Shown here piece by piece: positions 30,538 through 46,394 of a DNA stretch of 50,348 nucleotides. The translations under genes and the position numbers were made by a program. Location: contig CAMYKW010000034.1 of assembly GCA_947259175.1 (NCBI GenBank), positions 1-50,348 on the forward strand, read 5' to 3'. A model generated the notes under the pieces. It ran no database searches, had not been told where the DNA came from, and saw only the letters and a program-made list of their open reading frames with translations. This DNA is from an uncultured Gammaproteobacteria bacterium (GTDB lineage Bacteria; Pseudomonadota; Gammaproteobacteria; Arenicellales; JAANXG01). Within the stretch, counting starts at the first letter, position 1, and every line of letters begins with the position of its first letter.

Positions 30538-33087
30538 CTATAGCCAGAGCATACGCCCCATTTCCAACCGGTGCGACAAGGTGTGGTTGTAGGGATAAGC
30601 GCGCAACTTGTAGGAATAACGGCCGCATTGAGCGAGGCCGATCTCCCCCTCGTAAATCCGCCAGCCTTCATTAGACGCACCGCTCGCGGACAACGGATAC
30701 TGCCGCGGCTCCAGCAGACGATCCGCCTCGGATTTGTCGCTGATCAGGCACTCGACGCGCACGTCGCCGGGATCCAGACCATTGAGCAGCACCTCCACCA
30801 CCAGCCTCGCTTCATCGCCCACCCGTATCCCTTCCGTAGGGATTTCCGCGCGCCGAATCTTCACCCCGTTCCAACACTTGCCGATCTTTTTCTTCCACGC
30901 CACCAATTCCTTGGCCCAGGCCGCGTCGTCGGCGGCGAACTTCCGGCCCAGCTTCGCCGCCGGTGAGTAATACTGGGCGATGTAGTCGGTCAACATGCGT
31001 TGCGCGCTGAAGCGGGACAGCGCCGATATCATCGCTCGCTTCGCAACCTGTACCCAGTCCGACGAATAGCCCTGCCCGTCGCGCTTGTAATAGAGAGGCA
31101 GAATCTCTCCCTCCAGAAGATCGAACGCCCCGGATGCCTCGATGAAATCACGCTCGTTGCTGTCCGCGGTCGCAAGGTAGGGGCTGATGGCCCAGCCGTT
31201 GTCGCCCTCGTATCCCTCCTCCCACCAACCATCCAGCACGCTGAAATGGGGTATCCCGTTGATTGCCGCCTTCTGCCCCGAGGTGCCGCTGGCTTCCATC
31301 GGATACTCCGGGGTGTTAAACCACACGTCCACGCCGGTGACCAGAAAACGCGCCAATTCGATGTCGTAGGCTTCGAGCAATACGATTCTCCCTTCGAATT
31401 CGGGACGGCGTGACAGCTGGTAAATCGCGTGAAGATACTCCTGGCCCGGCCCATCCTGGGGATGCGCCTTGCCGGCGAATATGAATACCACCGGGTGTGC
31501 ACTGTCCTGCACCAGGCGCGCCAGTCGGTCCATATCCCTGGTCAACAGCGTGGCGCGCTTGTAGGTCGCGAAACGCCTCGCAAAACCAATCACCAGGCTT
31601 TCCGGATTGAGACATCGGGTCAATCGACGGATCTGGGATTGACTCAGCCCGTTCCTTTGTCCCTGCTGGGTGATGCGATGTTTCGCCTCATCCATCAACA
31701 ACGCCTTGATGGTCTGGTGGGTTGCCCAGAAGGCGCGGTCGGGGATGTTCTTGATCGCCGCCCAGAATTCCCGATCCACCAGACGATCGCGCCATTCTCC
31801 GGAAAGATGTTGATCGAACACGCGCACCCACTCGTGATGAATGAACGACAGCACGTGCACGCCGTTGGTCACGTGCCCGATCGGATTTTCCTCCGGCTCA
31901 ATCTGCGGCCAGACGAAACTGCCCGATTTGGACGACACCTCACCGTGCAGCCGGCTGACGCCGTTGCGGAAACGCGATCCGCGCAACGCCAATGCGGTCA
32001 GGTTGAAGCCGCCCTCGTGGCCCGGGCTGTCCCCCAATCCCAGGAGCTTATCGGAGTCCGCCTCGAGCTCATCCAGCAAATCTCCCAAATGGCGGATGAT
32101 CACATCCCGCGGAAAGATATCGTGCCCCGCCGGGACCGGGGTGTGGGTGGTAAACACGGTGGACGCGGCCACCCTTTCGAACGCGGTTTCGAAAGGCACG
32201 TTTTGCACCACCATCTCGCGGCATCGCTCCAGCACGAGCAGCGCGGCATGCCCTTCGTTGATGTGCCAGACCGTCGGCTGCAGGCCCATTGCCCGCAGCG
32301 CCTTGACTCCACCGACGCCAAGCAAAATCTCTTGCTGGATGCGCGTGTCGGCGCCGCCGCCGTAAAGCTGATGGGTTATGAATCGGTCGTTCTCGCTGTT
32401 TTGGTCTAAATCGGTGTCCAGCAGGTAAATCGAAATGATGCCGACCTTCGCTTCCCAGACCTTGAAGGCTACCTCACGATCCTCGAGACGCATCTTGAGC
32501 GTGAGATCTTGACCCGACGTGTCTTTTACCGGGAATACCGGCAATTCGTCAAAGTTCAAGTCTGCGTATTGCGCGTGCTGCCGTCCATTGCCGTCGATCT
32601 GTTGTTGAAAGTACCCGTGACGATAAAGCAAGCCCACGCCGACAAACGGCAGACCCAAATCACTTGCCTCCTTGCAGTGGTCGCCGGCGAGTATTCCCAG
32701 ACCGCCGGAGTAGATCGGCAGGCTCTCATGCACCCCGTACTCCGCGCAGAAGTAGGCAACGAGATCGTTGTTCTTGTCCAGGTTCTTGGTCACCGTCTTG
32801 GAGTGCCGGTGCTTGAGGTAGGTGTCAAAAGACGAGACACAACTCACGTAATGCCGCAAATACAGCGGATCCCCGGCGGCCTGGTTGAGGCGATCCTGAT
32901 CGACCCGGCGTAAGAACAAGCGCGGGTTATGACCGGTGGCTTCCCACAGCTCCGGATCCAGGGTGGAAAAAAGATGACGTATCCCGCGATCCCAGCTGTA
33001 GAGCAGATTGCTGGCGAGATCGGTCAATCGCGACAGGGGCTTGGGAATCGTGGGACGAACTTCGAGAGAGAATGTGGTACCGGTCAT
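30538..33087 (-). CDS. glgP: Alpha-glucan phosphorylase (GT35, DUF3417-type)
   Basis: This 849-residue phosphorylase belongs to the long subfamily with an N-terminal DUF3417 region (PLSRLTDLASNLLYSWD, DPELWEATGHNP). Conserved catalytic segments include YFCAEYGVHESLPIYSGGLGILAGDH, VWHINEGHAALL, TTHTPVPAGHD, FARRFATYKRA, and EASGTSGQKAAINGIPHFSV, where the Lys of SGQKAAING is the expected PLP anchor. It releases glucose-1-phosphate from glycogen. A C-terminal ~110-residue beta-rich extension (VRVECLISDKSEADRLLEPR) is present, as in this subfamily. It completes a synthesis-plus-degradation glycogen cluster. No clear ribosome-binding site precedes the ATG. Confidence 0.93.
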   Translation of the reverse strand: MTGTTFSLEVRPTIPKPLSRLTDLASNLLYSWDRGIRHLFSTLDPELWEATGHNPRLFLRRVDQDRLNQAAGDPLYLRHYVSCVSSFDTYLKHRHSKTVTKNLDKNNDLVAYFCAEYGVHESLPIYSGGLGILAGDHCKEASDLGLPFVGVGLLYRHGYFQQQIDGNGRQHAQYADLNFDELPVFPVKDTSGQDLTLKMRLEDREVAFKVWEAKVGIISIYLLDTDLDQNSENDRFITHQLYGGGADTRIQQEILLGVGGVKALRAMGLQPTVWHINEGHAALLVLERCREMVVQNVPFETAFERVAASTVFTTHTPVPAGHDIFPRDVIIRHLGDLLDELEADSDKLLGLGDSPGHEGGFNLTALALRGSRFRNGVSRLHGEVSSKSGSFVWPQIEPEENPIGHVTNGVHVLSFIHHEWVRVFDQHLSGEWRDRLVDREFWAAIKNIPDRAFWATHQTIKALLMDEAKHRITQQGQRNGLSQSQIRRLTRCLNPESLVIGFARRFATYKRATLLTRDMDRLARLVQDSAHPVVFIFAGKAHPQDGPGQEYLHAIYQLSRRPEFEGRIVLLEAYDIELARFLVTGVDVWFNTPEYPMEASGTSGQKAAINGIPHFSVLDGWWEEGYEGDNGWAISPYLATADSNERDFIEASGAFDLLEGEILPLYYKRDGQGYSSDWVQVAKRAMISALSRFSAQRMLTDYIAQYYSPAAKLGRKFAADDAAWAKELVAWKKKIGKCWNGVKIRRAEIPTEGIRVGDEARLVVEVLLNGLDPGDVRVECLISDKSEADRLLEPRQYPLSASGASNEGWRIYEGEIGLAQCGRYSYKLRAYPYNHTLSHRLEMGRMLWL

Positions 33088-33118
33088 AAAGCAGTGTCTT
33101 GTTTAATGTAATTTTTTA

Positions 33119-33143
33119 GGAAGCTCTAACAATCAGAGGTTCC
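33119..33143. repeat. Palindromic repeat family B, short copy
   Basis: The 25-bp unit consists of GGAAGCTCT, a 7-base spacer AACAATC, and AGAGGTTCC. It differs at only three positions from the unit at 39514-39538, and both are followed by TT. It lies 31 bp upstream of the glgP start codon, so it would fall in the glgP leader if transcribed. It may be the remnant of a miniature mobile element. Confidence 0.65.
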
Positions 33144-33415
33144 TTAAGATTGATTCCGCGAATCCAGGTTTTAAACAGCGAATCATTGACGGACAATACC
33201 GGTTCCCGGCGCACGCCGTCTCGGATCGCTCCCCACCCATGGCGGCAGTTCGGCGCTTGATTGACAAGTGTTTTATAGATTATGCAAACCCCAGTCAACT
33301 AATGATCGATGCCGACCAGCCGGCTTAAAACATTGCAAACGATGTGTGTTTGCGGTGGCGGCGAAACACCGTTGTCCTTACCGCGGGTATTGCAGTGCAG
33401 GTATGCCTTGCTTGG

Positions 33416-33443
33416 TTGACGCCTCGGCACAAGCCTTTATAGT
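33416..33443 (+). promoter_or_regulatory. Sigma-70-type promoter for the HbpS-like gene
   Basis: TTGACG and TATAGT are separated by 16 bp, each matching consensus in five of six positions. Transcription would start near 33450, giving a leader of ~85 bases before the ATG at 33535. This is one of the better sigma-70 matches seen in the window. Confidence 0.55.
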
Positions 33444-33534
33444 ACCCAGGCGTGATTATCCCACAGCACGGCAGCCGCGGGTCCCGGGGACCGTCCCGCC
33501 GTGCGCCATCGAGAATCAACAATGAGCACTAAAG

Positions 33535-33978
33535 ATGCCAGATATAACACTGAAACAAGCCAATACCATCATCGAAGCGGCACTTAACAAGGGGCGGGAA
33601 ATGAACCTGCCCAAACTCACCGTGGCGGTAGTCGATCGCGGCGGCAATCTTATCGCCTTGCAGCGTGATGACGGCGCCACATTTCTACGCCCGAACATCA
33701 GCCTGGCGAAGGCCTGGGGCGCCGTCGGCCTGGGGGTGAATTCACGCGACATCTCCAAGCGCTACGAGAGTGGTGTGCGTGAGACCGGATTCATCAATGC
33801 ATTGAATTCAATGACCGGGGGCAACGTCATCCCACTGCCGGGCGGTGTGCTCGTCTACAACACCGGCGGCGCGCTGTGCGGCGCCGTGGGCGTATCGGGC
33901 GCCGTATCCGAGGACGACGAGGCCTGCGCACTCGCCGGCGTGGAAGCCGCAGGCCTCGAGGCGCGCATCGCTCAATGA
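33535..33978 (+). CDS. HbpS/GlcG-family (DUF336) haem-binding-like protein
   Basis: The 147-residue protein fits the GlcG/HbpS family along its whole length: LKQANTIIEAALNKGREM, LTVAVVDRGGNLIALQRDDGA, ISLAKAWGAVGLGVNSRDI, GGVLVYNTGGALCGAVGVSGA, and a C-terminal EDDEACALAGVEA helix. Some members bind haem or act in redox sensing; others sit in glycolate or diol pathways. No signal peptide is present here, unlike secreted HbpS. It stands alone behind its own promoter and is followed by a tandem of family A repeats, so context gives no firm role. Confidence 0.85.
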   Translation: MPDITLKQANTIIEAALNKGREMNLPKLTVAVVDRGGNLIALQRDDGATFLRPNISLAKAWGAVGLGVNSRDISKRYESGVRETGFINALNSMTGGNVIPLPGGVLVYNTGGALCGAVGVSGAVSEDDEACALAGVEAAGLEARIAQ

Positions 33979-34003
33979 GTGCAGACCCGTAAAACTGCTT
34001 GAT

Positions 34004-34095
34004 CCCACACGGCGGAGTTCACCGTGGATCCCGGGGATTTGCCCGCGGTTCAGCCACACCCCCGACTTCAATTCCCGGGTTCGCGGCTGTTTGTG
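34004..34095 (+). repeat. Intergenic repeat family A, copy 2 (right half)
   Basis: This copy has ACACGGCGGAGTTCACCGTG at its left, followed by the family core (TCCCGGGGATTTGCCCGCGG, then TTCAGCCACACC). From 34027 to 34095 it is identical over 69 bp to 34245-34313. It begins ~25 bp after the HbpS-like gene stop and lacks the left inverted-repeat arm. Confidence 0.8.
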
Positions 34096-34170
34096 CCGTG
34101 CGTTGTTTACGGTACTTGTACCGTGCTCTGTTTACGACAAAAGCCCTCCCACCACGTCAATTCGCTGAGG

Positions 34171-34313
34171 CGCGGGTGAATCCCCGGGACCGTTGCCCGG
34201 CAGGGATGCCGGCACCGAGCCTACACGGACGTATTTACGGCGTGTCCCGGGGATTTGCCCGCGGTTCAGCCACACCCCCGACTTCAATTCCCGGGTTCGC
34301 GGCTGTTTGTGCC
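34171..34313 (+). repeat. Intergenic repeat family A, copy 3 (full)
   Basis: The most complete copy has a left arm AATCCCCGGGAC (34179-34190) and right arm GTCCCGGGGATT (34244-34255), which form a perfect 12-bp inverted repeat. Between them lies an inner hairpin, CCGGCA-GGGA-TGCCGG, and the conserved AGCCTACACGGACGTATT. The 3' part is the 69-bp segment shared with copy 2. The structure suggests a folded RNA, a terminator, or a REP-like mobile element. Confidence 0.8.
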
Positions 34314-34399
34314 TTACGTTTTTTACGACAAAAACCGCGCCAGCCGCTACCGCTGCCGCGGGCTGAACGGGTCACGCACGTTCGATCACCGTGGTACGA

Positions 34400-34405
34400 T
34401 ATAAT
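34400..34405 (+). promoter_or_regulatory. -10 box for the YdcH-like gene
   Basis: A perfect TATAAT lies 55 bp before the ATG at 34460. The -35 region 16-18 bp upstream (around CACGTT) is poor. The start would fall near 34412. Confidence 0.4.
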
Positions 34406-34459
34406 CATTTTCCAAATTCCATCCGTCGGCACAACGGCAATATCAGGAGTCCAAACAAT

Positions 34460-34699
34460 ATGCTAGGCGAATCCCACGACCTTCTCCACGAGTTTCCCGA
34501 ATTCCAAGACAAGATCACCAAGCTGCGACACACCGATGGAAAATTCGCCCGCCTGATGATCGAATACGACGAACTCGATGCCAAGATCCGCAGTCTGGAA
34601 GAACACGCGCAACCGGTCTCTGATAATTACATGGAGGATCTCAAAAAAGTCCGGGTGACTCTGAAAGACGAACTGTACGATATGCTCAGCCATCGATAA
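34460..34699 (+). CDS. YdcH-family (DUF465) small protein
   Basis: The 79-residue protein matches the YdcH/DUF465 family: HDLLHEFPEFQDKITKLRHT, FARLMIEYDELDAKI, and VRVTLKDELYDML. It is all-helical and likely a short coiled-coil hairpin. The molecular role of the family is unknown. The start at 34460 is preferred over an upstream in-frame GTG or ATG because CAGGAG lies ~11 bp before it and the family N-terminus begins here. It converges with the gamma-carbonic anhydrase gene 48 bp on. Confidence 0.88.
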   Translation: MLGESHDLLHEFPEFQDKITKLRHTDGKFARLMIEYDELDAKIRSLEEHAQPVSDNYMEDLKKVRVTLKDELYDMLSHR

Positions 34700-34747
34700 C
34701 GCCAAGCGCAGGCACCCCCAGCGAGGCCGGGGAAGACGCCTGCTCCG

Positions 34748-35275
34748 CTATGCGTCCCGCGGTGACAACGCCTGCGAGTAACGGCGAATCTTTTTGACAT
34801 ACAACTCGGCGGCCCACTCGAGATGACCGATCTCGTCGGCGTTCAACTCGCGCACGACGCGCCCCGGACTGCCCATCACCAGGGAGTTGTCCGGGATCTG
34901 TTTTCCCTCGGTGATCAGCGTGTTGGCGCCTATCAGGCAATTGTTGCCAATCGTCGCGCTATTCAGAATCACCGACTTGATGCCGATCAGGCTGTTGTCG
35001 CCTATCGTGCATCCGTGCAGCATGACCATGTGGCCGACGGTTACTCCGGCACCGATCGCCAATGGAACACCCGGATCCACATGCAGCACTGAACCGTCCT
35101 GGATATTACTCCTCGCGCCTACGTGGATGAGATCATTGTCGCCACGAAGAACCGCGTTGAACCAGATACTGCTGAGATTCTCCAGAATAACCGAACCGAT
35201 AACGGTGGCGCTGTCGGCAATGAAGTGCTCGTTGCCGCGGAGTTCCACACTTCGTTCTTCGAAATCATAGATCAT
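34748..35275 (-). CDS. Gamma-carbonic anhydrase family protein
   Basis: The 175-residue left-handed beta-helix protein shows hexapeptide repeats ([48 protein letters not shown]). His65, His82 and His87 match the three metal ligands of gamma-carbonic anhydrases (YrdA/PaaY/CaiE type). Many members have weak or untested hydratase activity, so the reaction is not certain. A C-terminal helix ([18 protein letters not shown]) caps the helix. It is divergent from the ABC exporter gene. Confidence 0.9.
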
Positions 35276-35405
35276 GGTTCATTCCCGTTCGTATAATTCG
35301 CCACTCAACCGCTGATGATGCGGCGGCGCCGTAGTAGTTGCAAGATTGGACTTCGCTGGGCAGGCAACAACACCATCCGTCACCGATTCGTTCTACAATG
35401 TGGTT

Positions 35406-37244
35406 ATGAAACAATCCGTCGCACCCGCCGGTTCCGAAAAACACCCTGAGCCTGAAGCATCGTACGATGCAGGGTATAACTGGTCCTACATCATCGACAT
35501 AGCGCGCAAACACAAGCGCAATCTGACCGTCGCCAATATTATCGCCGTAATCGCCGTGGTTGCGGCGGTGCCGACCCCGCTGCTGATGCCACTGCTGGTG
35601 GACGAGGTGCTGCTCGAGCAACCGGGAGTGCTGGTCAATCAAATGAACCAGATCATGCCCGACGCCTGGCACGGACCGACCTTGTATATCGGCCTCATAC
35701 TTCTGGCCACCGTCCTGCTGCGCTTCACGTCGACCTGTCTCAATGTGCTACAGACGCGGGAATTCACGCTGATTTCCAAAGACGTCACGTATCGCATGCG
35801 TCGCGATCTGCTCGCACACCTGGAACGCGTATCGATGGCGGAATACGAAACATTGGGCAGCGGCGCCGTGTCATCACGCTTCGTCACCGACGTCAACTCA
35901 ATTGATGAGTTCGTAGGACAGTCCGTGAGCAAACTGCTGGTGGCGATTCTGAGTTTGATAGGCGTGACTATTGTCCTGTTGTGGATGCACTGGCCGCTGG
36001 CATTGTTCATCCTGTTTATGAATCCCCTGGTTGTGTTCTTCACGGTGGCGCTGGGCAACAAGGTGAAGAGTTTGAAACAACGGGAGAACTCCGCATTTGA
36101 ACTGTTTCAGCAAAGCTTGGCCGAGACCCTCGGCGCCATTCAGCAGATTCGCGCCAGCAATCGCGAACGTCACTATATCCGCGACGTTGTCGACAAGGCG
36201 CGGGGAATCAAAATCCATTCGGCGGCGTTCTCCTGGAAATCGGACGCGGCCAATCGTTTCTCTTTCGGCGTCTTCTTGATCGGCTTCGATGTATTTCGCG
36301 CGATCAGCATGCTCATGGTGGTGTATTCCGACCTCAGCGTCGGCCAGATGCTCGCGGTATTCTCCTACCTGTGGTTCATGATGGGACCGGTACAGGAGGT
36401 GTTGAACATTCAATACGCCTATTTCGGCGCCAAGGCGGCGCTCGGGAGGATCAATGAATTGCTGGACTTGCAGCAGGAACCGGCCTACCCGCATCTGCAG
36501 AATCCGTTTCGGGATGCCGGTACGGTAGCGATACGCATTGAAGACGTGAACTTCGCCTACGTTGCGGGCGAACCGGTGCTCAAACATGTCAATCTCGAGA
36601 TTCAACCGGGCGAGAAGGTCGCCCTGGTCGGCGCCTCCGGAGGCGGAAAATCCACCCTGGTGCAAGTGATCCTCGGCATGTATCCGATACAAAGCGGCCA
36701 CCTGTATTTCGACGGCATATCGGTTACCGAGATCGGACTCGACGTGGTGCGCGACAACGTCGCCACCGTATTGCAACATCCGGCGATGTTGAACGATACG
36801 GTGCGCGCCAATCTGACTCTGGGACGTGAAGCCGGTGACGACGAACTTTGGAAGGTCCTCGGCGTCGCCCAGTTGACGGACGTGATTAGAGCCATGCCCC
36901 ACCGACTGGACACGATAATCGGCCGCGACGGGGTGCGCCTGTCCGGAGGTCAGGCGCAGCGGCTGGCGGTAGCGCGCATGATCCTGTCGGACCCCAAGGT
37001 GGTGATACTCGATGAGGCGACATCCGCCCTCGACAACGAAACCGAAGCCGCCCTGCACCACGCCCTCGGCGAATATCTCAAGGACCGTACCACACTGATC
37101 ATCGCCCACAGGCTGAGTGCGGTAAAACAAGCCGACCGCGTCTACGTGTTCGAGGACGGGCATATCATCGAACAGGGATCCCACGAGGAGTTGATGAATG
37201 CCGACGGCCTCTATCACAAGCTTTACAGCCGCACCGCGCGCTAA
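35406..37244 (+). CDS. ABC exporter (fused permease-ATPase)
   Basis: This protein of ~612 residues is a type IV half-transporter of the MsbA/lipid-drug exporter kind. An N-terminal membrane domain has about six helices (~25-320). The ATPase domain has Walker A GASGGGKSTL, a glutamine loop near VLQHPAMLND, the signature LSGGQAQRLAVARM, Walker B VVILDEATSALD and a His switch in LIIAHRLSAV. It would work as a homodimer. The substrate cannot be read, and no accessory gene is adjacent. The ATG at 35406 is chosen because the alternative in-frame start at 35346 is a TTG with an unremarkable extension. Confidence 0.88.
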   Translation: MKQSVAPAGSEKHPEPEASYDAGYNWSYIIDIARKHKRNLTVANIIAVIAVVAAVPTPLLMPLLVDEVLLEQPGVLVNQMNQIMPDAWHGPTLYIGLILLATVLLRFTSTCLNVLQTREFTLISKDVTYRMRRDLLAHLERVSMAEYETLGSGAVSSRFVTDVNSIDEFVGQSVSKLLVAILSLIGVTIVLLWMHWPLALFILFMNPLVVFFTVALGNKVKSLKQRENSAFELFQQSLAETLGAIQQIRASNRERHYIRDVVDKARGIKIHSAAFSWKSDAANRFSFGVFLIGFDVFRAISMLMVVYSDLSVGQMLAVFSYLWFMMGPVQEVLNIQYAYFGAKAALGRINELLDLQQEPAYPHLQNPFRDAGTVAIRIEDVNFAYVAGEPVLKHVNLEIQPGEKVALVGASGGGKSTLVQVILGMYPIQSGHLYFDGISVTEIGLDVVRDNVATVLQHPAMLNDTVRANLTLGREAGDDELWKVLGVAQLTDVIRAMPHRLDTIIGRDGVRLSGGQAQRLAVARMILSDPKVVILDEATSALDNETEAALHHALGEYLKDRTTLIIAHRLSAVKQADRVYVFEDGHIIEQGSHEELMNADGLYHKLYSRTAR

Positions 37245-37394
37245 CCGCCGGCCAAATCGCCGGTCGCACAAAAACCCGAAAGCAGGTGGGCGCGCTTTTC
37301 ACGCGCGAACAATGAATCGCGGCATATTTTCATTGGGCCAGCGCCCGCGTTAACCTGTGAAAGGCGGTTCAGTCCAGCCAAAACCGAGGGCGGT

Positions 37395-38006
37395 CTAAAT
37401 GCGTCGCAACAATACCTTCAGCCGCGATTGAGTGATGTGCGGCACCACTGGATTGTCGTAGGCGCTCACAAACTTCCTGCGATGGCCGGTATCGGGATCG
37501 TAGATATAGCGTTTCACTGTGGCGATATTCGCGCCGTAGACATGGATGCTGAGTGTCACCGCATCGGCCAGAGCGTTTGTCAGCCGATGAATGTCGCCGA
37601 TCGCAGGGGATGCGATAAACACGTCACTACGCTGCAACCGGCGGGTTGTCGCCGGCGATAACTGGTACCCCACGGGGTCGCGGTCGAACACCTCACAGCG
37701 CAAGACACCCTCCATGACCGCGGTCATACCCCAAACCGTGAGGTCGTAAATCGCGGTACCCCGCCCCGGCCCCCACACGACGCTGACTACCGAAAACCGC
37801 TCCCGCGGGTCCAGGTACAACAGATACTGTCGATACCAATCCGGATCGGGGGCCGCAAGTTCCGCCGGCAACCAATCATCGTGCCCTACGAGATCGGCGA
37901 GTAACGGCTTAGCGGATTCGAAAAGCCGCCGTTCAGCGTCTTCACCCTCGTCCACGATTCGGGACAGCTGTTCAATGAAACGCTTGAATCTGGCCAGGTT
38001 ATGCAT
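37395..38006 (-). CDS. Cysteine-dioxygenase-like cupin lacking two iron-ligand histidines
   Basis: The 203-residue protein aligns with the cysteine dioxygenase/thiol dioxygenase family: RFSVVSVVWGPGRGT, TVWGMTAVMEGVLR, SPAIGDIHRLTNALAD, and LSIHVYGANIATVKRYIYD. In active enzymes the first metal motif is HDH; here it is TAIYDLTVWG, so both histidines are replaced (Tyr87, Leu89). The third ligand, His140, and the Ser153-His155-Tyr157 triad are kept, with nearly the same numbering as rat CDO. Each substitution needs one base change from CAC (TAC, CTC). Ordinary iron-dependent thiol oxidation is therefore doubtful. The ATG at 38006 gives the family length; an upstream TTG at 38081 would add 25 residues. 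No operon partner is evident. Confidence 0.8.
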   Translation of the reverse strand: MHNLARFKRFIEQLSRIVDEGEDAERRLFESAKPLLADLVGHDDWLPAELAAPDPDWYRQYLLYLDPRERFSVVSVVWGPGRGTAIYDLTVWGMTAVMEGVLRCEVFDRDPVGYQLSPATTRRLQRSDVFIASPAIGDIHRLTNALADAVTLSIHVYGANIATVKRYIYDPDTGHRRKFVSAYDNPVVPHITQSRLKVLLRRI

Positions 38007-38187
38007 GGTTCCGTCGCTGGATGGAGCGCTAATTACCAACACCGGTACGTGATCGACACGCGGATCGTCCGCCTGATACAAAATGGTTCCGCGTAACCAT
38101 TAAAGAACATAAATGTCGCCGCACCTCGGGACCGTAAAAAACGAGCGCATAGCGCACCGGAACACACCGAAGAACAGCGGCTCATCG

Positions 38188-39267
38188 TCATTCGGCGACG
38201 ATGACTCGATTGCGTCCCTGACGCTTCGCCTGATACAAGGCGTGATCGGAACGCTGCAACAGCCATTGGCCGAGATCCCCGCCGGCGGCCGTTGGAGGCT
38301 TATCCAGCACCGCCACACCCGCGGAAATGGTAATACTGAGCCGCTGCTGGTCTTGCAGTTTGAACTGCAACTTCTTAATCTCCTGATGATGCCGCCGCGC
38401 GATCTTGGCGCCGTGAACCAACCGGGTTTCCGGCAGCAGCAATACGAATTCTTCACCACCATAGCGCGACAGGATGTCGCTGGCGCGCAACCCCTTGCAC
38501 AAAGCATCGGCCACCGACTTCAAAACGCTATCCCCCACGGAATGGCCATATTGATCATTGATCTTCTTGAAATGATCGATGTCCAGCATCACGCAGGTCA
38601 GCGGATGCCCGTAGCGGCGGCAGCGTTCGATTTCTTCGTCCAGACGGCGCTCCAGGAATCTCCGATTGGGAATATCCGTCAATGGATCGGTCAATCCGTG
38701 GCGTTCGAGCCTGGCGATGTTGACCGTATTGCGTATGCAAAGCGCAATGGTGGCCGACAAATGCGCCAGCAACTCGGTCCCCGCTTCTGCCGAAAAATGC
38801 CGCCGGTCATAACTGCCCTGGGCGAGACAACCAATAAGCTTCCCGGAGACGATCAATGGGGACAATGCCGTGGAACCCAGGGGTCTTTTACAACCTGGGA
38901 ACAGCCGTTGCTGCGTCGGGACATCGCAACCGCCCACGACCGGCTGTAGCGAGTCCGGAAACCATTGGTCCAACTCATGTTCAGTCACCATGACAAAATA
39001 CGGGCTAATGTCGTGCGGCGCCTCGCGTTTGGCCATGATGCGGACAATTTCGTAATCAAGATTGAGGCACGCTATCGATGCCTCATCAACCTTGGGAAAG
39101 GTGCTCTTAATGCCCGTAGTGATGCCGTGTACGAGTTGATGAAATGTATCCGCGCCGATCGCATCAATTTCAACCTTGCGGAACCCAGACCAGATTTTCT
39201 CATTGCTGCGCACTTGTTTCTTGAGCGCAGCCAATTCGTGACGCATCACGGCAATTTTGTGTTCCAT
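38188..39267 (-). CDS. DUF484-GGDEF diguanylate cyclase
   Basis: This protein of ~359 residues opens with a coiled coil (MEHKIAVMRHELAALKKQVR), followed by a DUF484/GAF-like sensor domain (~40-190; ISPYFVMVTEHEL, LGSTALSPLIVSGKLIGCLA). A GGDEF domain (~200-359) has an intact active site RYGGEEF and an inhibitory site RASD five residues before it. It should make cyclic di-GMP from two GTP under product inhibition. The ATG at 39267 matches the DUF484 start; an in-frame start at 39342 adds an unlikely leader. No EAL domain or membrane segment is seen, so it is cytoplasmic and senses an unknown ligand. Confidence 0.9.
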   Translation of the reverse strand: MEHKIAVMRHELAALKKQVRSNEKIWSGFRKVEIDAIGADTFHQLVHGITTGIKSTFPKVDEASIACLNLDYEIVRIMAKREAPHDISPYFVMVTEHELDQWFPDSLQPVVGGCDVPTQQRLFPGCKRPLGSTALSPLIVSGKLIGCLAQGSYDRRHFSAEAGTELLAHLSATIALCIRNTVNIARLERHGLTDPLTDIPNRRFLERRLDEEIERCRRYGHPLTCVMLDIDHFKKINDQYGHSVGDSVLKSVADALCKGLRASDILSRYGGEEFVLLLPETRLVHGAKIARRHHQEIKKLQFKLQDQQRLSITISAGVAVLDKPPTAAGGDLGQWLLQRSDHALYQAKRQGRNRVIVAE

Positions 39268-39582
39268 GGCGTGGCGGTCTAATTCAATCCATGCGGAAGG
39301 TGAACTCAACCGGATCACGACGCAGGGTATGCGGGATGGCAAGTCGCAGGTTCATTGCGTTCATCGGTGGCGATGGAATATGCGCCATTCTAACACCGCT
39401 TGCGGCGGGTCAAATCCCGCACGAACCGGGTTGGTGTATATTTAGGGAAGCTCTGAATAATCCATTTCAATCAGTTGCGTGATTGAACTGTGTCAGTACA
39501 TCCATGTACCGGCGGAACCTCTGACAATCGGAGGTTCCTTGGACTTTGAAACAGCTGGCGAAACCTTACCGACCCGTCACCA
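39268..39582. other. Divergent intergenic region holding repeat B
   Basis: This 315-bp gap lies between the diguanylate cyclase (minus) and dadA (plus). Its right third is the structured repeat at 39444-39540. The left part shows no clear promoter or gene. Confidence 0.45.
39444..39540. repeat. Palindromic repeat family B, long copy (MITE-like)
   Basis: This ~97-bp element begins GGGAAGCTCTGAATAATCC and ends in the 25-bp palindrome (39514-39538) also found near glgP. The two outer ends form an imperfect terminal inverted repeat. Inside are three successive perfect hairpins: TTCAATCA-gttgcg-TGATTGAA (39466-39487), GTACAT-cc-ATGTAC (39496-39509), and GGAACCTC...GAGGTTCC (39514-39538). No coding capacity. 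It resembles a miniature element mobilised by a transposase encoded elsewhere. Confidence 0.65.
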
Positions 39583-40833
39583 ATGGACAACCACAGCGAC
39601 GATTTCGATTTAGCCGTACTGGGCGCCGGCGTGTTGGGCGTCAATACCGCCTACTGGGCGCAACAGGCCGGTCTGTCGGTCGTGGTTATAGACCGGCAAC
39701 CCGCCGCCGGTCTGGAGACGAGTTTCGCCAATGGCGGCCAGATTGCAGTCAGTCATGCCGAGCCCTGGGCCAATCCCCAAGCCCCGCTTCAAGTGATCAA
39801 GTGGCTGTTCGACAGCAACGCGCCCCTGCTGTTTCGACCCCGCATGGACTGGGCGCAGTGGCGCTGGATTGCGGCGTTTGTCGCCAACTGCACGGCCGCC
39901 AAAGCGGATCGAAACACCGCATCCATCGTCCGCCTGGCGGTGGAAAGCCGCGACAGACTGCAGGAGGTCCGGGAACGGGAATCCATCGAATACGATCACC
40001 GCAGCGAAGGCATCCTGCATTTCTATCGTGATCCCCGATCCTTCGAGTCCGCGCTGCACGCCGTGGAAGTGATGCGCCAGCACGGGTGCCGGATAGAATC
40101 CATTCAGCCCGATCAGGTGGTGGAACTGGAGCCGGCGTTTGCCGGCAGCAAGGCGCAAATCGTCGGCGCGACCTACTCCCCCGACGACGAAAGCGGCGAC
40201 GCCTTCAAGTTCACTCAGGCGTTAGCGGACCTTTGCGCATCCCGCGGGGTGGAATTCCGCTACGGGTCAGAGGTGCTCGCTCTGCACCGGGATAAAACCG
40301 GCATGCGCATCACCGCTGTGGAGACGCGTACGCCGCAGGGATTCAAATCCGTGGCTGCCCGCGACGTAGTGGTGTGCCTGGGGAGCTACTCGGCGCCGTT
40401 TTTAAGGCCCTACGGGATTCGCCTCAACATGTATCCCGCCAAGGGTTATTCAATCACCCTGCCCACCGACCCGTCAGCGCCAAGCTGTCCGCAGAAGAGC
40501 CTGACCGACGATGAATACAAACTGGTCTACAGCAACTTCGGCGACCGGCTCAGGGTCGCCGGAACCGCTGAGCTGAGTGGTTTCCGCGTTCATCTGGACC
40601 ATCGCCGCTGCCGGGCGATCGTCGACAACGTCCGCGGCCTGTTTCCCGATGCCGGCCGCTTTGAAGAAGTCCAGTACTGGTCGGGGCTGCGTCCCACGAC
40701 ACCCACCAACGTGCCGTACATCCAGGGCACCCGCTTCCGCAACTTGTGGCTCAACACCGGCCACGGCACGCTGGGCTGGACCCTGGGCCCGGGTAGCGGC
40801 AAACGCATCGTCGAGTTGATCCGGAAAGGCTGA
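39583..40833 (+). CDS. dadA: D-amino acid dehydrogenase (DadA family)
   Basis: The 416-residue flavoprotein starts with a glycine-rich FAD motif (LAVLGAGVLGVNTAYWAQQ), followed by SFANGGQIAVSHAEPWANP, which is diagnostic of the DadA small subunit. LRPYGIRLNMYPAKGYSITL, YWSGLRPTTPTNVPYI and NTGHGTLGWTLGPGSGK follow. It oxidises D-amino acids (typically D-alanine) to 2-oxoacids and ammonia, passing electrons to the respiratory chain. No alanine racemase gene is adjacent. A general glycine-oxidase-like role is possible but the SFANGGQ motif favours DadA. The gap to the next gene shows no clear terminator. Confidence 0.92.
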   Translation: MDNHSDDFDLAVLGAGVLGVNTAYWAQQAGLSVVVIDRQPAAGLETSFANGGQIAVSHAEPWANPQAPLQVIKWLFDSNAPLLFRPRMDWAQWRWIAAFVANCTAAKADRNTASIVRLAVESRDRLQEVRERESIEYDHRSEGILHFYRDPRSFESALHAVEVMRQHGCRIESIQPDQVVELEPAFAGSKAQIVGATYSPDDESGDAFKFTQALADLCASRGVEFRYGSEVLALHRDKTGMRITAVETRTPQGFKSVAARDVVVCLGSYSAPFLRPYGIRLNMYPAKGYSITLPTDPSAPSCPQKSLTDDEYKLVYSNFGDRLRVAGTAELSGFRVHLDHRRCRAIVDNVRGLFPDAGRFEEVQYWSGLRPTTPTNVPYIQGTRFRNLWLNTGHGTLGWTLGPGSGKRIVELIRKG

Positions 40834-46254: not shown

Positions 46255-46364
46255 CGGAGCCGGGGGTAAATACCCGGGACCGTCGGCCGCAGGGATGCGG
46301 GCGTCGAGCCTACACGGATGTATTCACGGCGGGTCCCGGGTAGTTGCCCGCGGTTCAGCCACAC
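46255..46364 (+). repeat. Intergenic repeat family A, copy 4 (full)
   Basis: The left arm TACCCGGGACC (46271-46281) and right arm GGTCCCGGGTA (46332-46342) form a perfect 11-bp inverted repeat around GCAGGGATGCGGGC and AGCCTACACGGATGTATTCA, and the end reads TTGCCCGCGGTTCAGCCACA. Relative to copy 3 one base changes in each arm so that pairing is kept, suggesting the structure is selected. It lies between the convergent pta and citrate synthase genes. Confidence 0.8.
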
Positions 46365-46394
46365 CGCAGAGCTTATCCCTCGCATGGGGGTTAT

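Follow-up and report, generated by a model that had tools for sequence, protein, structure and literature searches.

The window analysed here, a stretch of 50,348 nt from an uncultured gammaproteobacterium, encodes a homologue of 3-mercaptopropionate dioxygenase (3MDO) that lacks both histidines of the H-x-H iron motif and has nevertheless been kept under purifying selection. The best overall explanation is a pseudo-3MDO that lost its catalytic iron and was retained as a non-catalytic binding or scaffold protein, to which we assign a probability of roughly 0.6. The more general statement, that the product is a pseudoenzyme maintained by selection, is held with high confidence; once this is granted, binding or scaffolding would be its probable role. 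Its retention is most simply read as serving a role that involves no iron chemistry. Annotation by similarity would label the gene a cysteine/mercaptopropionate dioxygenase, crediting the organism with a thiol oxidation that it probably cannot perform.

The product is a 3MDO homologue by both sequence and fold. Among solved structures, its sequence is closest to 3MDOs and close homologues, led by 3uss/4tlf of P. aeruginosa (best E 2.8e-48) and followed by 6xb9, 4qma and 4wvz, the whole 3MDO set falling between E 2.8e-48 and 5e-47; mammalian cysteine dioxygenase (CDO) matches at E 1.7e-7 and weaker. In the Pfam family CDO_I (PF05995), the window protein scores 21.9 bits, below the cut-off of 23, and the orthologue from the related genome G004 passes it with 27 bits. 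A comparison of the window protein with the NCBIfam models gave no match. The protein carries the 3MDO hallmarks, a Ser-His-Tyr (SHY) motif (S153, H155, Y157) and a glutamine (Q60) in place of the CDO arginine. Its predicted structure (pLDDT 85.9), compared with those of the P. aeruginosa enzyme (Pa3MDO) and of Av3MDO, best matches 4wvz (Pa3MDO; Z 29.1, rmsd 1.4, 190 residues), and this confident model supports the expectation of an ordinary cupin barrel. An earlier note on this DNA had given the right limits for the reading frame, which lies on the minus strand (the plus-strand frame over the same interval contains stops), and had placed the motif slightly off, at 37747-37757 (Table 1).

Table 1. 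Coordinates within the window of the 3MDO-like gene, its diagnostic sites and its neighbours.
Feature	Position	Strand	Remark
Gene of the probable 3MDO-like pseudoenzyme	37395..38006	minus	203 aa + stop, ATG at 38006
Degenerate iron motif Tyr87-Asp88-Leu89	37740..37748	minus	TAC GAC CTC; His-Asp-His in active 3MDOs
His140, last iron ligand	37587..37589	minus	Phe in relative G002
Leu102 in place of Glu	37701..37703	minus	Leu in 5/5 variants; Glu in 80/80 comparison rows
Ser153-x-His155-x-Tyr157 (SHY motif), kept	37536..37550	minus	Tyr is Phe in G002
Arg166	37509..37511	minus	Aligns with Av3MDO Arg168; kept in 5/5 variants
C-terminal segment 158-203	37398..37535	minus	Stronger constraint than 1-157 taken together
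DUF484-GGDEF diguanylate cyclase, upstream neighbour	38188..39342	minus	Adjoins the gene in 5/6 genomes
ABC transporter (membrane + ATPase domains), convergent neighbour	35346..37244	plus	Conserved locus

The gene is present at the same locus in all six genomes of the genus that were examined, with five copies intact (referred to as the variants). These read YDL at the iron motif in the window, G001 and G004, FDL in G003 and SDL in G002; in this last copy, residues 140 and 157 are both phenylalanine, resulting in the loss of all three iron ligands. The sixth copy, in G005, is a pseudogene with a frameshift near residue 158, and because the part matching residues 1-89 is missing, the remnant directly follows the stop of the GGDEF gene. 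Misassembly could possibly underlie this broken copy; taken as it stands, it indicates that the function is dispensable at least in G005. The locus runs from a gene that we take to encode glucan phosphorylase through HbpS-like and DUF465 genes (the latter unmatched in the G002 locus), a presumed gamma-carbonic-anhydrase-like gene and the ABC transporter to the 3MDO-like gene, and continues with DUF484-GGDEF, FAD oxidoreductase and kinase-Sel1 genes. In G004 (L109, between 8543 and 8768), the DUF484-GGDEF gene, which lies upstream in the other five genomes, is missing from this locus and the 3MDO-like gene is kept.

In Av3MDO, iron is bound by His90, His92 and His142, Arg168 binds the substrate carboxylate, Glu105 hydrogen-bonds the serine of the Ser155-His157-Tyr159 motif, and Tyr61, Pro88 and Phe180 line the entrance (PMC8050391). 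By alignment, the iron ligands correspond to window positions 87, 89 and 140, Arg168 to 166, Glu105 to 102, the SHY motif to 153/155/157 and the entrance residues to 58/85/179. All 80 comparison 3MDO rows, namely L006, L007 and L030-L107 (78 of the best 80 loci taken from 498 relatives in a genome-contig search, the other two being genus copies), carry histidine at positions 87, 89 and 140. The window protein, which aligns without gaps to the 3MDO HDH site, has Tyr87 and Leu89 instead, leaving His140 as the only one of the three ligands. This bears out the earlier note, which had read HDH as Tyr-Asp-Leu at 87-89 with His140 and Ser153-His155-Tyr157 retained. It had also correctly placed each change in the window one base from CAC; at site 87, the codons of two relatives (TTC in G003, TCG in G002) are both more than one base from His, indicating that the change is old.

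The loss extends beyond the ligands themselves. Second-sphere Glu102 has become leucine in every variant; neither this nor the relative lacking all three ligands had been part of the earlier note. V142, G162 and a C-terminal N-x-W are likewise gone from all five, and F76 from four. Of the three entrance residues, the window protein keeps Tyr58 and Phe179 and has lost Pro85, which is present in all 80 comparison rows, to alanine, the sole loss at this site among the variants. The earlier note's view that the rest of the fold is well conserved is right as regards overall structure (Z 29 to Pa3MDO), whereas the active site has changed (E102, V142, G162, N-x-W, F76, Pro85). A search for compensating ligands yielded no newly invariant His, Asp, Glu or Cys in the barrel of the five variants, and no newly fixed His or Cys; the candidates E30, D38, E49 and D170 are invariant in the variants, but common in active rows too. 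Conserved catalytic residues have therefore gone with no replacement seen in the sequence. With two or three ligands lost and no ligand-type residue newly fixed in the barrel, a catalytic iron is very unlikely, and thiol oxidation should be absent.

Among seven other genomes of the family, none has a 3MDO-type match (distant matches occur in G010, G011 and G012). In the sister genomes G006, G007 and G010, five stretches that surround either the ABC gene or the oxidoreductase gene contain no match to the 3MDO-like or the GGDEF gene of this locus. At the level of the order, where 22 of 109 genomes have a match if the genus is counted, 3MDO-type genes outside the genus were found in G054 and G018 alone (E<1e-50), and both read HDH. 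The search was extended to samples of the class (369 genomes, 20 with a match) and the phylum (398 genomes, 40 with a match; about 20 weaker matches without a locus were left out of the reading). Among the loci outside the genus readable over the site, none shows the same loss and every one has H-x-H. HDR and HDA readings, which appeared in some rows with the window as query, are gap effects, as L030 as query gives HDH. One contig (L067, JAKAIH010000176.1) carries two 3MDO-type genes, both reading HDH, whose products share 44% and 32% identity with the window protein. No relatives in viral contigs were confirmed, and a viral origin is rejected.

In a tree of 95 rows, the five variants form one clade (support 100/99), nested in a group of 18 rows (100/96); the bootstrap had yet to settle completely, very long branches lead to the outgroup, and that of G002 is long as well. 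The 13 other 3MDO rows of this group are proteobacterial (Shewanella, Neptunomonas, Nevskiales, Massilia, Gallionella etc.), except for one contig labelled Synechococcus. Since the variants form a single clade, one loss before the genus diversified would explain all five.

After this loss, the gene was kept under purifying selection. A one-ratio codon model over the five variants gives an omega of 0.223 (omega=1 rejected, 2dlnL 189) and the window branch one of 0.218 (omega=1 rejected, 2dlnL 10.2), values that are approximate because synonymous sites are near saturation (branch lengths, in neutral units per codon, run from 0.25 to 4.56). When the window branch was simulated under neutrality, with indels ignored, only 10 of 2000 runs remained without a stop. 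For six neighbouring genes from the same genomes, omega is 0.08-0.12, compared with 0.2 here (grid maxima), so that the constraint on the gene is real but about half as strict. The constraint is unevenly spread, with regional values in the variants of 0.26 for residues 1-157 and 0.114 for residues 158-203 (2dlnL 24). On the grid, residues 1-157 reach 0.27 in the variants versus 0.07-0.14 in four groups of active 3MDOs, and residues 158-193 reach 0.10 versus 0.03-0.10, which indicates a relaxed barrel and a C-terminal part at ordinary constraint. With its frame intact and constrained, the window copy does not qualify as a pseudogene, whereas the G005 copy does. The homologue search proposed in the earlier note showed Leu89 to be common to the five intact genus copies (Tyr87 in three). 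Its refuting condition, that no relatives share the substitutions and that sister genomes show signs of decay, received a mixed answer: the substitutions recur in relatives, and decay is seen in one of the five sister genomes.

The end of the protein is where something appears to have been gained. Residues 194-203 (SRLKVLLRRI) stand in for the variable tail of active 3MDOs, and all five variants have LKVLLxR here, followed by Ile or Val. The N-x-W ahead of this tail, lost from the variants, is present in 76 of the 80 active rows at each site. Over 194-203 the variants show an identity of 0.81, where divergence-matched sets drawn from active 3MDOs average 0.35 (1 of 2869 sets as high); over 158-179 it is 0.85 against 0.62 (0 of 2869 as high), and over 180-193 an ordinary 0.636 against 0.623. 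These sets overlap, as they were drawn from the same 80 rows, so they are not independent trials, and active 3MDO tails vary in length. Within the variants, residues 51-78 are as conserved as 158-203 (0.78 each). Because the C-terminal omega is not lower than in active groups, 180-193 is ordinary and 51-78 is equal, the clearly gained constraint is confined to the last ten residues. These have a pLDDT <50 in the models; a second model with full-length tails places a helix at 196-202, again at pLDDT <50 and hence unusable. Beyond GANI, the variants carry a net charge of +6 to +9, whereas the 80 active rows average +0.7 and reach +8 at most. A DNA or RNA element beneath the C-terminus was considered and rejected, as four-fold sites are no more conserved there (0.43) than overall (0.41).

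Several features of the surrounding DNA may be recorded here. Between the GGDEF and 3MDO-like genes, at 38082-38101 (minus), lies an inverted repeat AATGGTT/AACCATT with perfect 7-base arms 6 apart; at the aligned place, G001, G003 and G004 instead have a AAAACTCTT..TTTT..TGGTC stretch. Upstream of the gene no promoter match was found, an absence that carries no information, and there are no Rfam matches within 33000-40000. A 111-base direct repeat occurs in two copies, 87% alike, at 34001-34111 and 34217-34327 (plus), with a third partial copy at 46306-46365 and a 29-base match on contig C27. Inverted-repeat pieces in and between the 111-base copies give this direct repeat the look of a small element that has spread locally.

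How a pseudo-3MDO might be used can be sketched from the residues that were kept. An ancestral 3MDO lost both histidines of the iron motif before the genus diversified, as sequence, phylogeny and motif counts show. The pocket, presumably metal-free, may still take a small carboxylate via Arg166, with Gln60, Tyr58 and Phe179 close by, and contact with a partner may fall to the basic, conserved C-terminal segment that bears the new LKVLLxR tail. Retained Arg166 may be structural and kept for stability; Arg168 variants of Pa3MDO are reported to be unstable (PMC8050391). As a tentative version, possible rather than probable, the protein may act as a metal-free ligand sensor or adaptor, whose pocket binds a small carboxylate or thiol with no reaction taking place and whose newly conserved basic tail signals to a partner that might itself be encoded in the conserved locus.

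The main and serious rival is slow decay, in which the common ancestor of the genus gave up activity and the frame has been eroding since, the remaining constraint being partly leftover or reflecting avoidance of misfolding. This has happened in G005, where the copy is truncated and frameshifted, and it would fit the relaxed barrel (omega 0.27), the additional absence of His140 and Tyr157 from G002, and the rapid divergence of the gene, with the four other intact copies 48-64% identical to the window protein compared with 59-90% for eight neighbouring genes. However, omega is well below 1 for the clade as well as for the window branch, frames are intact in five of six genomes, and the tail is newly conserved, so that we regard slow decay as rather unlikely. 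A pseudoenzyme is accordingly the best supported of the three outcomes named in the earlier note, with one old loss followed by purifying selection. Its 'newly inactivated gene' is rejected for the window copy, given the age of the loss and the omega of 0.218 on the window branch, and its 'different metal' is unlikely. The latter supposes that a different metal, held by Tyr87 and His140 and perhaps Tyr157, supports a different reaction, a view favoured by the joint presence of Tyr87 and His140 in the window, G001 and G004 and by Asp88, kept in all five variants. Yet G003 has Phe and G002 has Ser at site 87, G002 also has Phe at site 140, all five have Leu at site 89, and no ligand-type residue has become newly fixed in the barrel; Asp88 is not new either, since all 80 active rows carry Asp or Asn at this position. 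An altered metal site is therefore improbable.

Slightly less probable still is a regulatory subunit, a dead paralogue that activates or inhibits a functional thiol dioxygenase present alongside it in the cell. 3MDOs are dimers (PMC8050391), which makes mixed dimers conceivable, and distant CDO-type genes with HDH, about 28% identical to the window protein, are present in G001 (C318:2632-3150) and G005 (C84:9034-9573). Against this, the window genome itself (G000, 97.7% complete) has no other match by protein or profile search, making a partner enzyme of this family unlikely, and G002, G003 and G004 (74, 86 and 96% complete) have no second match. A Pfam CDO_I search found nothing further in G000, which adds little, because the CDO-type genes of G001 and G005 also escaped it. 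A sequencing or assembly artefact at the motif is refuted by the relatives: Leu89 is common to five separate species-level assemblies whose surrounding codons have diverged, so that an error is excluded in practice.

Compared with known proteins, the window protein shares the cupin fold of type I cysteine dioxygenases (Pfam CDO_I, mammalian CDO; Z ~22), but has a Gln-type pocket and lacks the iron motif. It is closer to the Gln-type enzymes Av3MDO (6xb9) and Pa3MDO (4tlf/3uss), with the same fold and length and 42-44% identity over the structure alignment, and has in common with them Gln60, Ser153/His155/Tyr157, Arg166, Trp78 and the entrance residues Tyr58 and Phe179. Unlike them, it lacks two iron histidines, has Leu for Glu102 and Ala for Pro85, and ends in a new conserved tail where the C-terminal N-x-W is gone. 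A search of the open-licence literature, which misses most subscription journals, found no pseudoenzyme in the thiol dioxygenase family, and neither 'dioxygenase' nor 'cupin' appears in the main text of the pseudoenzyme review PMC10211241. The protein resembles pseudoenzymes in general (e.g. pseudokinases; PMC10211241), in that the fold is kept by selection while catalytic residues are lost. The natural series running from HDH through YDL, FDL and SDL with loss of the third histidine to a pseudogene may offer a view of how the thiol dioxygenase fold can be put to iron-free use.
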